From Streptomyces sp. NBC_00525 (GTDB lineage Bacteria; Actinomycetota; Actinomycetes; Streptomycetales; Streptomycetaceae): DNA of 64,000 nucleotides. The DNA is taken from assembly GCF_036346595.1 (NCBI RefSeq), contig NZ_CP107834.1:2604001-2668000 (forward strand). The letters are read 5' to 3'. Below are positions 28,216 to 38,228 of this stretch, piece after piece. Every line of letters begins with the position of its first letter. Positions within the stretch are counted from its first letter, which is position 1. Both the position numbers and the translations under genes were made by a program. The notes under the pieces were generated by a model. That model did no database searches, was not told where the DNA came from, and saw nothing but the letters and a program-made list of their open reading frames with translations.

Positions 28216-29082
28216 ATGACGAACACGCAACGTGAGGAACGACCGGAGCGCCCGGTCGAATCGGACGGGACGGCGCACCTGTTCAGGGCGCTGGGCCGCC
28301 AGTTGAAGTTCCTGCGCGAACAGGCGGGCATGAGCCAACGGGAGTTGGCCCAGGCGACGCACTGCGGCGAGGACCTGATCTCCGCGATGGAACGGGGCGT
28401 ACGCACGCCCCAGGTGGAGTTCCTGGCCCTGGCGGACAGGGCGCTGAAAACGGGTGGGCTGCTGTCGTCGGCGGCGGAGGAGGTGAGGGAAGCGCTGGGC
28501 CGCGTCCGGACGCGGCATCCGGGGTGGTTCCGGGACTACGCGCGGACGGAGGCGGAGGCAGTAGCCGTCCACGGATACAGCGCCCAGGCGATTCCTGGTC
28601 TGCTCCAGACGGAGGCATACGCGCGAGCGACGTTCATCCAGCGTCGACCGTTGCTGAGCGAGGAGACCATCGAGAAGCGGGTCGCCGATCGCCTCGCGCG
28701 ACAACAGGTCTTCGAGCGCTGGCCTCCGCCCACCTTCAGCTACGTCCTGGAGGAGACCGCCTTACGCCGTCCGCTCGGCGGGCGGGATGTCCACGCGGAA
28801 CAGTTGCGGCGCATCATGCACTTCGGGCGCCTGCGCAATGTGGAGATCCAGGTCATGCCCACGGACCGGGAGGAACACGCAGCACTCGACGGCACGTTCA
28901 CACTGATCGACCCCAAGGGCCGCCCTCAAGTTGCCTACACCGAGCTCTACGGGAAGGCGAGGCTGATCACCGACCAAAACGAGGTGCGTGTGTACAGCGA
29001 ACGCTATGGGATCATCCGAGCGCAGGCACTCTCCCCGAGGGAGTCCCTGACGTTCATTGAGAAGGTGTTGGGAGACCGATGA
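28216..29082 (+). CDS. XRE-family regulator with DUF5753 domain (WhiJ-like)
   Basis: A 288-aa protein. Residues ~20-75 form the HTH (LGRQLKFLREQAGMSQRELA...EDLISAMERGVRTP), followed by DUF5753 with AQAIPGLLQTEAYARA and IQVMPTDREEHAALDG. Its stop overlaps the start of the DUF397 gene (ATGA), so the pair is translationally coupled. With the divergent HATPase it forms a whiJ/abaA-like set. The 134-bp divergent gap contains both promoters. Confidence 0.93.
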   Translation: MTNTQREERPERPVESDGTAHLFRALGRQLKFLREQAGMSQRELAQATHCGEDLISAMERGVRTPQVEFLALADRALKTGGLLSSAAEEVREALGRVRTRHPGWFRDYARTEAEAVAVHGYSAQAIPGLLQTEAYARATFIQRRPLLSEETIEKRVADRLARQQVFERWPPPTFSYVLEETALRRPLGGRDVHAEQLRRIMHFGRLRNVEIQVMPTDREEHAALDGTFTLIDPKGRPQVAYTELYGKARLITDQNEVRVYSERYGIIRAQALSPRESLTFIEKVLGDR

Positions 29083-33996: not shown

Positions 33997-35190
33997 TCAA
34001 AAGCCTTGTGTGTCCACAGACAGGAGAGGGTGGTGCCAGCGCAGCTGCGGGTGCCCGTCGATCCAGTACGTATGGGCCTCTCGGGTAACACGGAGCCGTA
34101 CGTCGGTGATGTCGGCGCGGTTCGTGGCCTGCCACTCCGTAAGGGACTGCTCGATCGTGTCCCACAGCGCCACTGGCCCTCCCTGGCGAACCGTCCAGCC
34201 CCCACCGCTCTCCGTGAACGCGGCGAACGACTCACGGTCCGGGTCGAAGAGGTACAGCAACCGGCCTCCCTCCGGCGTGGTGGCGCGGATGAACCGCGCC
34301 CCTGGGGCGGCGAGTTGCGCGACGAAGGCCGGCATCCAGTCCTCCAGCAGTAGCGGGGACACCTTGGCCGCGCGTTCCGTTTCGGCGTAGGCGGTTCGGG
34401 CGGAAAGATCGCCGTCGATCGGTGCCTGCGCCTGGGAGCGGGCCTGCATGAACGAACTGCGGCCAACGATCCTGCCCTCGGCGGTCCCGTCCTCGGCGAC
34501 CGTCACCTTCGCCAGCCCCGTCCCGTACCCCCATGTCCCGCCCACCGTGGCGAGGACAATGCCTCCTGACGCGGTCTGCCTGATCCAGGTGTACGGGATG
34601 CGGCGAACCGCGCACGTGGCGATGACGCGGTCGTACGGGGCGCGGCGGGGATGGCCGAGGAGACCGTCTCCGGTGACGGTCCAAGTCGAGTGTCCTGCGG
34701 TCTCCAGGGCGGCATCCGCTCGGGCTGCGACGTCCGTGTCCACCTCGACGGTGGTGACGTTGTCCTCCCCGAGACGGCTGCACATCAGGGCGCAGGAGTA
34801 TCCGGTTCCCGTACCGATCTCCAGGACCCGGTGGCCGTCTTCCACATCCAGCTTCTCCAGCATGTCCACGACGGTGAACGGGGTGGTGGACGACGAGGTG
34901 GGGGAGCCGGACACGAGGTCGCTTACCTGGTCGGCGGTGAGGTGCCCGTCGAGCTGGGTTGTCAGGGACTCGTCGCGGTAGGCGATCCGCATCCACTCGG
35001 CCGGGGCAGTTCCCACGGCGGTCACGGGACGCCACCGACCGCCCTCCACGGGCAGGAAGACTCCAGGATTCAGGAACAACTCGCGCGGAACGGCCTCCAC
35101 CGCCGCCCGCCAGCCGGGGTGGGTGAGGACCCCGGCCCGTGTCAGACGGGCGGCGAGGGAGTGGCGCTCGTGGAGAGTGTCGGCGGTCAT
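33997..35190 (-). CDS. PIMT-like O-methyltransferase of ATP-grasp RiPP system
   Basis: A 397-aa protein. Residues ~1-215 resemble protein-L-isoaspartate methyltransferase, with SAM-binding motif VLEIGTGTGYS (122-132) and the VETVEVD-like NVTTVEVDTDV segment. The extra ~180-residue C-terminal domain is characteristic of methyltransferases linked to ATP-grasp-modified peptides. In related graspetide, lanthipeptide and lasso clusters such enzymes methylate an Asp side chain, which then closes to an aspartimide. I infer the same here. Its ATG overlaps the ATP-grasp stop (ATGA), so it is translationally coupled and third in the operon. Confidence 0.9.
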   Translation of the reverse strand: MTADTLHERHSLAARLTRAGVLTHPGWRAAVEAVPRELFLNPGVFLPVEGGRWRPVTAVGTAPAEWMRIAYRDESLTTQLDGHLTADQVSDLVSGSPTSSSTTPFTVVDMLEKLDVEDGHRVLEIGTGTGYSCALMCSRLGEDNVTTVEVDTDVAARADAALETAGHSTWTVTGDGLLGHPRRAPYDRVIATCAVRRIPYTWIRQTASGGIVLATVGGTWGYGTGLAKVTVAEDGTAEGRIVGRSSFMQARSQAQAPIDGDLSARTAYAETERAAKVSPLLLEDWMPAFVAQLAAPGARFIRATTPEGGRLLYLFDPDRESFAAFTESGGGWTVRQGGPVALWDTIEQSLTEWQATNRADITDVRLRVTREAHTYWIDGHPQLRWHHPLLSVDTQGF

Positions 35191-36146
35191 GGGGCGGCTC
35201 CTTCGGTGAGCAGTGTGGCGAATGCGGCGGACATGGCGAGGCCGGTGGCTTCTTCCAGCCACCCCCACTGTCCGTTCGGGTTCAGCTCCAGCCACCAGAG
35301 GTCACCGGCACGGTCCACGGCGAGGTCGAAGCTCCCCGAGGCCAGTCCGAAGTGATCGAGGTAGGCGAGGAGCGCCTTCTCCGTCCGGCTGGGCAGGTTC
35401 ACCACGCGGTAGGACAGGGCCGAGTAGTCCTTGCGCCAGTCGAGCAGCCCGGACTCGATCCGTACGGCGAACACCTCACCACCGACAACCAGCACGCGGA
35501 GGTCGGCCGCCTTGTCCACGACGGCCTGGAACAGGTGCGGCACCAGGGCCACGCTCGCGTCGATCTCCTCGGCGGTGACCGGATCGGCCCAGCCGGTGAC
35601 GGGGACGCCGTCGCGTCGGCAGGGCGTCCAACGGAGGATTTTGAAGAGCACCTGGCCGTGGTTGTCGATGAAGGCTCGTGCCTCGTCCGGGTCGTTCGTG
35701 ACCAGCGTCGGAGGGACGGCCAGCCCAAGGCGCTGGGCAACAGCGAGCTGAGCGGGTTTGTAGTCGGCGGCGGCGTTGCGCAGCGGATGGTTGACCCACA
35801 GCGGCCCGTCCAGGGCGTACAGGACCCCGCCGAGGCCGTACCGGACCTGAGCGGACGCGAACCGCGCTTCGTCCGCGCCGAGGTGATCGAAGGTGGGCCA
35901 CACCGGGCGGCGCCAGTAGACCGACCGAACGTGGGTCAGGTCCACGGTCCTGGACGGAGTACGAAGCTGCCCGCCCACCGGGGCCGGGCAGCTTCCGAAC
36001 CGGGCGGAGACCGTCAGGGCCGAGCCGATGTCGGCCGGGTTGAACCTGGTCACGGGTACGTTGCGCCGGCCCAGCTCGGCGATCACCATGTCGGCGGTCA
36101 GGTCGTCCGCCTCGGTCACCACCAGCACCGGCCTCTCGTCGGTCAT
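35187..36146 (-). CDS. ATP-grasp RiPP maturase (TgmB-like)
   Basis: A 319-aa ATP-grasp ligase. The N-terminal pre-ATP-grasp region has VLVVTEADDLTADMVIAELG and VYWRRP. The central lysine region is VLFKILRW. The C-terminal metal-binding motif LWWLELNPNGQWGW has the Glu and Asn that hold magnesium. This matches the SAV_5884/TgmB family of ribosomal-peptide maturases, which form ester or amide links between Asp/Glu side chains and Thr/Ser/Lys. It starts 3 bp after the precursor gene stop and is coupled to the methyltransferase. The expected active-site residues are all present. Confidence 0.92.
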   Translation of the reverse strand: MTDERPVLVVTEADDLTADMVIAELGRRNVPVTRFNPADIGSALTVSARFGSCPAPVGGQLRTPSRTVDLTHVRSVYWRRPVWPTFDHLGADEARFASAQVRYGLGGVLYALDGPLWVNHPLRNAAADYKPAQLAVAQRLGLAVPPTLVTNDPDEARAFIDNHGQVLFKILRWTPCRRDGVPVTGWADPVTAEEIDASVALVPHLFQAVVDKAADLRVLVVGGEVFAVRIESGLLDWRKDYSALSYRVVNLPSRTEKALLAYLDHFGLASGSFDLAVDRAGDLWWLELNPNGQWGWLEEATGLAMSAAFATLLTEGAAP

Positions 36147-36149
36147 CGG

Positions 36150-36404
36150 TCAGTCCTGCTGGGAGTCCTGGTCGTGGCCCTGGTCGTTCTGGGAGTCGCT
36201 GTTCGTGACCGTGCTCGTCTCGGTGCCCTTGCTGGTGCCGTGCTTGCCCATCTCGATCACGGTGCCCGTGTGGTCGGTGTAGACGCCGAGTTGCGTGTCG
36301 GGGTCGAGCACGACCGACGTGTGGGGGCGGCGGGTGACGGTCGGGTACGGGGTGAGCCTGCCGGCTCCCCAGGGACGCGTCACGGTCCCGGCTGCGGTGG
36401 ACAT
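36150..36404 (-). CDS. Precursor peptide of the ATP-grasp RiPP (TgmA-like)
   Basis: An 84-aa peptide. The leader carries the family landmark RPWGAGRLTPYP (residues 10-21), the expected docking site for the ATP-grasp enzyme. The middle (residues 34-55) is VLDPDTQLGVYTDHTGTVIE, with Thr/Asp/Glu pairs fit for side-chain cross-linking. The end (60-84) is Thr then Asp/Gln/Asn rich (SDSQNDQGHDQDSQQD) and contains N-D, G-H-D and Q-D steps where an aspartimide could form. GAGG precedes the ATG. It is the first gene of the operon with ligase and methyltransferase; the divergent XRE gene starts 120 bp away. The exact cross-links and cleavage site cannot be read from sequence. Confidence 0.88.
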   Translation of the reverse strand: MSTAAGTVTRPWGAGRLTPYPTVTRRPHTSVVLDPDTQLGVYTDHTGTVIEMGKHGTSKGTETSTVTNSDSQNDQGHDQDSQQD

Positions 36405-36524
36405 CTTGGCCTCCTCGAAGACAGTGAGTGGTTGTTGCCGAATCCGAAGCTACGGTCGCGGCGAATCGAGTAGGACTGACTGTGGGTACGGGTTCGATGA
36501 CCGAGCGCGTACGAAGGGGGTGGC

Positions 36525-37628
36525 ATGGGGGCGGCGGAAGGTGCACGCGGGCGTGCCCGCACCGGCCTGATCGCCGGGTTCGTTCTGCGTGTGGCCCGAG
36601 AGAGTACGGCCGTCCACACGCAGGCCGGCATGGCGGAGGTGATGGGGGTCGATCTCGCCACGTGGCAAGGGTGGGAGACGGGGCGGCGGCCCCTGGTCAA
36701 CGTGAAGGCCGGTGCGCTGCTCGACATCCGGCGCCGGTTGCTCGCGCTGGGCGCGGACCCGCGTGTCCTCCATCTCCTCGATCCCGCGATGGACGCGGAC
36801 CGCGTCATCGCCGCGACGCTTCACCCGGATGTCAACGCCCGTCACCCCCTCGCACACTGGGTACACACGCGCGACACCGCCCACATGATCGCCTGGGCGC
36901 TGAACGGAACCGTTCCACCAACTCTCAGGCGCAGGGCGCCGGTCGGGCGCCGCGGCCCGGTCGCCAAGGCGCCGCTCCTCTCCACGCCCGACCGCGCCCT
37001 CTTCTTCGACCGTCTCCGGGAGACCGCCGAGTCCGCGTCGCGCACCGGGGACGACGGGTTGCTGCTGCACCGCCAGACCCTCTACCTCTGTTCCTACGAC
37101 CGGACCTTGGAGGCCAAGACATGGACGGCGCACGCCCTGCACAGCCGCCGCGATCTGATCGCCTCCCATGGATGGACACCGTTCTGGGCCACATCGCGCT
37201 CAACTGCCACCGCACTGGCCAGGCTCGGCGATCGGCAGCCGCTCCTCGACTTCATCGAAAAGGGGCTGGCTGGTGATGACAAGGGCGAGACAGCAAACCT
37301 GAACTACTGGGCGTACTGGCTGGGTTCGATGCGGGAGCCACAATCGGACGACACGTTCATGCGGCACGGGCCGACCGACTGGGACCCCGTACGGCTCCTG
37401 CGCGGCCTCACAGACGGCCTCCACCGGGCTCCGGTGTACACGGATCTGTACGTGCACTCGCTATGGGCCCTGCTGACCACCAACCGATGGCTGCCACTGG
37501 CAGACCCCACCCTCGCTGCCGAACTGGCCACGTATTCCGGCCAACTCCTGGACCGAAGCGGGGTATCCCCGCGAGCTCGGCGGGAACTCAGCACAGTGCA
37601 TTACGTTCTACGCAAGAACCGCACATGA
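36525..37628 (+). CDS. XRE-family regulator associated with the ATP-grasp RiPP cluster
   Basis: A 367-aa protein. The N-terminal HTH (residues ~15-70: LIAGFVLRVARESTAVHTQA, then MGVDLATWQGWETGRRP) is followed by a long helical domain with TPR-like periodicity to the end. Regulators of this layout commonly lie next to TgmA/TgmB genes in Streptomyces. It is transcribed divergently from the precursor gene across a 120-bp gap that must hold both promoters, so it is the likely controller of RiPP production. The inducing signal is unknown. Confidence 0.85.
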   Translation: MGAAEGARGRARTGLIAGFVLRVARESTAVHTQAGMAEVMGVDLATWQGWETGRRPLVNVKAGALLDIRRRLLALGADPRVLHLLDPAMDADRVIAATLHPDVNARHPLAHWVHTRDTAHMIAWALNGTVPPTLRRRAPVGRRGPVAKAPLLSTPDRALFFDRLRETAESASRTGDDGLLLHRQTLYLCSYDRTLEAKTWTAHALHSRRDLIASHGWTPFWATSRSTATALARLGDRQPLLDFIEKGLAGDDKGETANLNYWAYWLGSMREPQSDDTFMRHGPTDWDPVRLLRGLTDGLHRAPVYTDLYVHSLWALLTTNRWLPLADPTLAAELATYSGQLLDRSGVSPRARRELSTVHYVLRKNRT

Positions 37629-37646
37629 CACATCGGAGGCGCATTC

Positions 37647-38228
37647 ATGGCGGACGCAGAGCAGGAGCAGGTCAAGGGGACCGCGGGGTTTCTGCTGGAG
37701 ATGGGGATGCTCAAGCGCGCCAAGCGGAGCGGCTGGTGGATCGCCGGGGTGAAGGACCCCGAGACCATCGCGGAGCACAGCTTCCGGGTCGCGCTCATCG
37801 GCTCCGTGCTCGCCATGATGGAAGGCGCCGACCCCGCGAAGACGGCGCTCCTCGGCCTGTGGCACGACACGCAGGAGACCCGCGTCGGCGACATCCCGCA
37901 CATCGGCCGCCGCTACCTCGAAGCCGCGAGCAACGAGAAGGTCACCGCGGACCAGGTGTCCGCCGCGCACCCCTCCGTGCGCGCCGGCGCCCAGCGGATC
38001 GTGGAGGAGTACGAGAACGGGGACTCCCCCGAAGTCGTCTGCGCGCATGACGCCGACAAGCTGGAATGCCTCATCCAGGCCGTCGAGTACCGCGAACAGG
38101 GCTGCGCGAACGTGCAGCCCTGGATCGACAGCAGCATCGCCAAGCTGAAGACGGCCTCCGCCCAGGCCCTCGCGGAGGCCGCGCTCACCATGACGTCGAT
38201 CGAGTGGCAGCAGACGTACCTCCGCTGA
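37647..38228 (+). CDS. HD-domain phosphohydrolase (YfbR/HDDC2-like)
   Basis: A 193-aa metal-dependent phosphohydrolase. The signature residues are in AEHSFRVALIG (first His), GLWHDTQETRVGDIP (the HD pair plus Glu) and CAHDADKLECLIQA (the distal Asp). The length and the DADKLE motif fit the 5'-deoxynucleotidase YfbR/HDDC2 group. GGAGG precedes the ATG by seven bases. It starts 18 bp after the XRE gene and could share its transcript. A nucleotide-pool role is the default; a link to the RiPP cluster is possible but unproven. Confidence 0.88.
   Translation: MADAEQEQVKGTAGFLLEMGMLKRAKRSGWWIAGVKDPETIAEHSFRVALIGSVLAMMEGADPAKTALLGLWHDTQETRVGDIPHIGRRYLEAASNEKVTADQVSAAHPSVRAGAQRIVEEYENGDSPEVVCAHDADKLECLIQAVEYREQGCANVQPWIDSSIAKLKTASAQALAEAALTMTSIEWQQTYLR

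Follow-up and report, generated by a model that had tools for sequence, protein, structure and literature searches.

What kind of peptide would Streptomyces sp. NBC_00525 make from a compact operon that joins an ATP-grasp enzyme to a methyltransferase, and which residues of that peptide would become linked? The operon was examined within a 64,000-nucleotide stretch of the genome (NZ_CP107834.1, positions 2,604,001 to 2,668,000 of the forward strand; referred to as the window, from whose first letter coordinates are counted). Judged by its sequence, the locus is a graspimiditide (i.e., group-13 graspetide) cluster, in which a small peptide is very probably cross-linked into an ester-ring ladder before a single aspartate at the tip is modified. 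As a whole, the best explanation, and one that we hold to be quite likely, is a graspimiditide operon yielding a nested-ester hairpin, with the methyltransferase acting on the loop residue D70.

Gene content and class of the operon

The three genes lie on the minus strand in the order precursor, ligase, methyltransferase. They encode an 84-amino-acid (aa) precursor peptide (36150..36404; TIGR04186 at 95.1 bits, cut-off 25; PF14408 at 87.6 bits), a 319-aa ATP-grasp peptide maturase, i.e., a putative ester-forming macrocyclase (35187..36146; TIGR04187 at 401.6 bits, cut-off 350), and a 397-aa PIMT-like L-aspartyl O-methyltransferase with an extra C-terminal domain (33997..35190; TIGR04188 at 471 bits, cut-off 380). 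The coordinates confirm the tight three-gene operon described in an initial annotation of this DNA (a 3-bp gap, followed by a 4-bp ATGA overlap at the ligase stop). Its proposal of an ATP-grasp cluster for a ribosomally synthesised and post-translationally modified peptide with a PIMT-like methyltransferase is supported as well, all three genes exceeding the curated NCBIfam cut-offs for the trio TIGR04186, TIGR04187 and TIGR04188 in a profile search. A scan of the region returned no promoter-like site, and one terminator-like site against 0.8 expected.

Two other assignments were considered and rejected. A canonical repair PIMT beside an unrelated ATP-grasp enzyme is at odds with a score of 79.5 bits for TIGR00080 (pimt; cut-off 159.05), the grasp-system family TIGR04188 having been passed. 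Microviridin-type MvdD/MvdC ligases share the ATP-grasp family and ester chemistry, and the window ligase stayed far below the cut-offs of these families (128.7 vs. 475 and 147.8 vs. 425 bits).

The precursor consists of a leader (about residues 1–52) bearing the RPWGAGRLTPYP motif and a core (about residues 53–84), GKHGTSKGTETSTVTNSDSQNDQGHDQDSQQD. A search with it gave 174 protein matches at E ≤ 0.001, its own entry among them, and mean identity to the window precursor was 87% in the core and 64% in the leader for the 119 relatives among the matches listed. Protein matches were considered as the best 120 of 174 and the best 120 of 564, and the resulting core set is partial and leans to the window's own type. 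Searched against the PDB, the precursor gave just two weak, unrelated matches; relatives of the ligase there comprise 9bou, 7m4s, 5ig8, 7mgv, 5ig9 and 7drm. Compared with five relatives, ligase and methyltransferase showed ratios of nonsynonymous to synonymous substitution (dN/dS) of 0.19–0.26, the methyltransferase comparison with the relative L003 being left out on account of a stop codon within the aligned stretch.

Graspimiditides are a named and widespread graspetide subclass with characterised members, and this is not a new gene combination; four products have been characterised, many clusters have been listed and the class is common in Streptomyces. According to PMC13001092, the four are fuscimiditide, amycolimiditide, albusimiditide and SsfA(BM), about 1,000–1,400 clusters are listed, and the architecture is given as Thr-Asp ester stem-loops with a methylated Asp within the loop and Gly next to it; the role of the aspartimide is described there as still open. 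Loops of 10–12 residues are reported, and the native protease is known for no member, in PMC12291112. The product proposed for the window in the initial annotation, a multiply cross-linked peptide bearing an aspartimide, is supported by analogy, the four characterised relatives being multiply esterified peptides with an aspartimide or isoaspartate (isoAsp). What would be new is modest and comprises a target site of the Asp-Ser kind, a loop predicted to be short, a recognition motif that departs from the usual one, and a ring map based on covariation.

Predicted ring connectivity of the core

Five Thr (T57, T61, T63, T65 and T67) and five Asp (D70, D74, D78, D80 and D84) are each kept in at least 99% of the 119 listed relatives. 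They are laid out with N-terminal Thr (T57, T61, T63 and T67) and C-terminal Asp (D74, D78, D80 and D84) in nestable spacing on either side of a loop Asp (D70). In the register i+j=141, T57–D84, T61–D80, T63–D78 and T67–D74 are mirrored, the D70|S71 junction is central and T65 stands opposite G76. Four Thr-Asp pairs arise solely in this register, two other registers reaching three, and shuffling the residues within each side of the centre gave at least four such pairs in 1.05% of trials (p = 0.0105).

Changes in related cores support the nested pairs T57–D84, T61–D80 and T63–D78 at the sequence level, and T67–D74 less firmly. From 260 cores, of which 7 were unparsed (leaving 253), the pair table was built with the 231 of one N-strand length (P0195 and P0198 left out); some entries treated as separate cores are distinguished solely by residues before the His. 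Positions 63/78 read T/D in 162 cores, P/G in 67 and otherwise in 2, and positions 65/76 read T/G in 162, T/D in 67 and otherwise in 2. These swaps divide a type A, to which the window belongs, from a type B, which includes a second cluster of the same genome (see below), and they amount to one event because the five type-B rows form a single clade on a ligase tree (103 of the 147 labelled ligases; type A was sampled at every third row plus five named ones, and all other ligases were kept). A further mirror pair, Thr59 with Asp82, is complete in 5 cores, with Thr alone in 9, Asp alone in 1 and neither in 216; where it is complete, 61/80 reads V/N (one core), T/G (three) or T/E (one). On the ligase tree, the Thr59/Asp82 state needs three changes, at least two of them forced by starred branches.

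The same cores bear on a shifted ladder of identical chemistry, in which T61–D84, T65–D80 and T67–D78 (i+j=145) would be joined and T57, T63 and D74 would lie outside the rings. With three mirror-spaced Thr-Asp pairs this is among the two next best registers, and its loop of 10 residues falls within the reported 10–12. We nevertheless regard it as very improbable, since all 13 cores with an N strand one residue longer carry Pro or Ala in place of T65 and yet retain all four Asp and the remaining four Thr (two of these 13 being identical from the His onward). Moreover, the shifted register gives T57 no use, though Thr occupies this position in 228 of the 231 cores, and in cores of the L057 type the positions at which a Thr and an Asp have been lost mirror each other in register 141 rather than 145, as does the newly gained pair. 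A last point against it is that the four C-terminal Asp of SsfA are read as ring-forming.

For the i+j=141 ladder, SsfA(BM) from Streptomyces sp. F-3 provides the closest comparison. According to PMC10787088, it carries five esters, one of them thought to run via the C-terminus, with a connectivity that could not be determined by mass spectrometry (MS), and its authors assign all five ring carboxylates to the 12 C-terminal residues, among which there are four Asp. The published numbering (97 aa; GluC fragment 63–97 and tryptic fragment 66–97; Thr78; Asp81-Gly82; four Asp and no Glu within residues 86–97; PMC10787088) fits the long-loop spacing E-M-G-K-H...T..D-G.....D...D.D...D, seen in L032 and others. 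This long-loop class makes up 22 of the 253 parsed cores, with four Asp among the 12 C-terminal residues in 21 of the 22. SsfA also has the same three-gene content as the window, and the loop Asp is the target of its PIMT homologue. It differs in that its loop Asp precedes Gly and not Ser, and the window loop is two residues shorter than that of SsfA and the long-loop type. Judged by this numbering, SsfA appears to be the nearest characterised relative, with a reservation for its Ser89, which corresponds to Gly in 22 of the 22 long-loop cores. The initial annotation had seen no obvious known product in the core. The core letters GHDQDS had no match in the searchable papers, but SsfA is a known product whose numbering agrees with the core's spacing.

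Several points tell against the nested pairs at i+j=141, including that the SsfA fit rests on published numbering and meets the Ser89 misfit. The shuffle p rises to 0.177 once Ser and Glu count as partners, and among 29 hand-picked representative cores the Thr-Asp p was below 0.05 in just 9 and at least 0.27 in 10 distant core types, with no clear register in 10 of the 29. The cores are kin, so that their counts are not independent. T67–D74 shows no covariation, D74 being retained in type B even where T67 is replaced by V or I, in a core parse that itself fixes column 74 as Asp. As the innermost ring, this pair would also leave a loop of 6 residues, against the 10–12 described (PMC12291112). 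Finally, the loop Asp sits at the register centre here and not in the long-loop relatives, where a rule that it always does so fails. The support for T67–D74 accordingly comes from the register and from the reading of SsfA.

In type-A cores, five Thr are conserved and, the loop Asp apart, there are five carboxylates when the C-terminus is included; type-B cores have no spare Thr. No residue follows the last Asp in 160 of the 164 type-A and 55 of the 67 type-B cores (Fisher p = 1e-4, uncorrected for kinship), a pattern compatible with a C-terminal ester in type A, though no proof of it. Among the ways to accommodate a fifth ring, a strict nest with the C-terminus outermost (T67–D74, T65–D78, T63–D80, T61–D84 and T57 to the C-terminal carboxylate) would match the five Thr and the five carboxylates as in SsfA with none left over, and would draw on the same difference in endings. 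We consider it unlikely, as its register varies (i+j of 141, 143, 143 and 145), covariation couples other positions (63 with 78, and 59 with 82), four type-A cores have extra C-terminal residues, and T65 is missing from the 13 longer-strand cores. A more novel reading, which we hold to be less likely than not, is a pentacyclic ladder with the four nested Thr-Asp esters of register 141, an unusually tight six-residue loop, an ester from T65 to the C-terminus and an aspartimide at Asp-Ser. The searchable literature contains no ring-mapped graspimiditide with a six-residue loop and no mapped side-chain-to-C-terminus ring. According to computed masses, four esters plus one aspartimide are isobaric with five esters, an ambiguity in the mass test that the initial annotation had proposed. 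The untagged precursor lacking Met comes to 8848.2 Da, which would fall to 8776.2 Da with four esters and 8758.1 Da with five, and K59, a trypsin site, lies inside the predicted T57–D84 ring.

The methyltransferase, its predicted target and the proposed pathway

The structure model of the methyltransferase spans the two-domain 1dl5 (predicted local distance difference test, pLDDT, of 91), and the protein keeps the conserved SAM-binding (S-adenosylmethionine) residues in a full-length frame. Near the C-terminus, a WXXXGXP sequence is reported as conserved and proposed as a substrate-recognition motif (PMC13001092). Present within the last 120 residues in 93 of the 120 matched frames listed (the window's own copy being among the 120), it is replaced by WQATNRA in the window, where L003 has WQDANRP and L071 WQDAGRP. 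At positions common to at least 90% of the others, the window protein deviates three times, i.e., at S208 (Pro in 97 of 106), N357 (Gly in 95 of 104) and A359 (Pro in 101 of 104), the latter two falling inside the motif; this, too, weakens the case for a modified loop. The enzyme might then be impaired or differently active and the cluster might yield an esterified peptide only, a reading to which the three departures, and the Pro retained by the sibling L003, lend some weight. We think this quite improbable given the intact frame and SAM-binding residues, a dN/dS of about 0.2, the pLDDT of 91 and the status of the WXXXGXP role as proposed, not shown, in PMC13001092.

The residue following the loop Asp was Ser in 138, Gly in 92 and Asn in 1 of the 231 cores. 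In all four characterised graspimiditides it is Gly, other residues including Ser being sequence predictions (PMC13001092), and an Asp-Ser site occurs in none of the four within the searchable literature. Like the peptide predicted for the window, amycolimiditide from Amycolatopsis cihanbeyliensis is a stem-loop that contains four nested esters and carries an aspartimide in its loop (PMC13003496 and PMC13001092), but its loop has 10 residues and Asp-Gly, compared with a predicted 6 residues and Asp-Ser here. Fuscimiditide from Thermobifida fusca has nested Thr-Asp esters in a constant register (T7–D18 and T3–D22) and a PIMT homologue that acts on the cross-linked core only (PMC12291112 and PMC13003496); unlike the peptide predicted for the window, it has two esters, a 10-residue loop and Asp-Gly. 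The SsfA methyltransferase requires the fully cyclised peptide, and its product is an isoAsp/Asp mixture (PMC10787088). One type-B core, P0148 from Streptomyces alboflavus, has Gly in place of the loop Asp (VGKGGK) and also in place of the Asp partner of the second Thr, and may represent a form that is decaying or unmethylated.

The gene content, the assignment to families, the conservation and the covariation of predicted pairs are directly supported here, and the chemistry and order of steps that we infer would be as follows. The ligase would bind the leader and phosphorylate core Asp carboxylates, which would be attacked by Thr hydroxyls to form omega-esters. The core would thereby become a hairpin ladder with the nested esters T57–D84, T61–D80, T63–D78 and T67–D74, and perhaps a fifth ester onto the C-terminal carboxylate with the spare T65 as partner, by analogy with SsfA. 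The methyltransferase would then recognise the cross-linked hairpin and methylate D70 in the loop, after which the methyl ester would close on the S71 amide to give an aspartimide that, as in SsfA, may end as isoAsp/Asp. Removal of the leader and export would fall to proteins encoded outside the cluster.

Distribution, neighbourhood and a second cluster

A second complete cluster, made up of adjacent genes for precursor, ligase and methyltransferase, is present in the same genome (L083:4519-6875 (+), equal to G000:C1:3895518-3897874; precursor also at L002:1462-1734). Its core is of type B, with three predicted pairs, a 10-residue loop and Asp-Gly in a KDGK loop; it gave no match in the PDB. 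Its methyltransferase is 47% identical to that of the window over the aligned part.

Among 199 Streptomyces genomes, TIGR04188 scored above its cut-off in 80 and TIGR04186 in 142, and the window precursor had a match at E ≤ 1e-8 in 71; of 394 genomes of the class, 46 had a TIGR04187 match above cut-off. The TIGR04186 count takes in a Streptomyces sub-family with a distant ligase (L088-L092, L094-L097, L121, L125-L127), in which the precursors of L088 and L126 end in TTTSTAGSKTHFDD and the fetched stretches gave no methyltransferase match, among them 9 of 10 short loci (L088-L092, L094-L097). In a ligase-anchored neighbourhood set (the best 80 of 228 related stretches), the window genes, used as tblastn queries, matched a methyltransferase in 79 of the 80 loci and a precursor in 78. 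At L053:5657-6966 of Amycolatopsis rhizosphaerae, a precursor and a ligase that groups among the type-A ligases occur with no methyltransferase match at that locus, and the core is a long Ser/Thr-Asp repeat. In L076, L077, L078, L081 and L082, the best ligase piece covers 0.6–0.7 of the query and the surrounding genes match, so that the ligase copy may be broken in some strains (or in draft assemblies).

Divergent from the operon lies a gene for a putative helix-turn-helix (HTH) regulator (36525..37628 (+)), adjoined by one for an HD-domain (YfbR-like) protein (37647..38228 (+); PF13023 at 94.3 bits). The initial annotation had placed the operon under a divergent XRE regulator; the divergent gene is indeed there, but its HTH call is sub-threshold (HTH_31 at 20.9 bits, cut-off 27) and it recurs in 7 of the 80 loci. 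The HTH and HD-domain genes occur in the same 7 loci, which marks them as a local companion pair, and both were rejected as core parts of the cluster. A role of the HD-domain protein in the pathway is doubtful, and the two genes (36525-38228 (+)) perhaps form a small regulatory or stress unit of their own.

Flanking genes of the 80 loci were called crudely and clustered (clusters in at least 6 loci, most judged by eye), a stricter filter having missed most cluster genes. Recurring clusters had an HATPase_c_2 representative (33 loci) or an XRE-DUF5753 representative (29 loci), and other recurring proteins were, by eye, HTH-like, MerR-like, acetyltransferase-like and RNase-like. An ABC-ATPase-like protein was found at scattered positions in 10 loci, and a protein of about 107 aa in 14 (e.g., L074:8180-8500), generally close behind the methyltransferase gene and in the same orientation. 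No conserved leader protease or dedicated transporter was recognised among these recurring flank genes, as judged mostly by eye. Group 13 is reported to co-occur with DUF397/DUF5753 genes (PMC13097080), and the window holds a separate XRE-DUF5753 regulator about 5 kb from the cluster (28216-29082 (+); DUF5753 at 175 bits).

The cluster is ordinary in itself, and its value lies in a testable prediction of ring connectivity. For SsfA, connectivity was left undetermined by MS (PMC10787088), and covariation in the present family yields a ring prediction for what is apparently the same architecture, including the spare Thr. The locus also offers a way to ask whether such PIMT homologues depend on a Gly following the target Asp and on the WXXXGXP motif.

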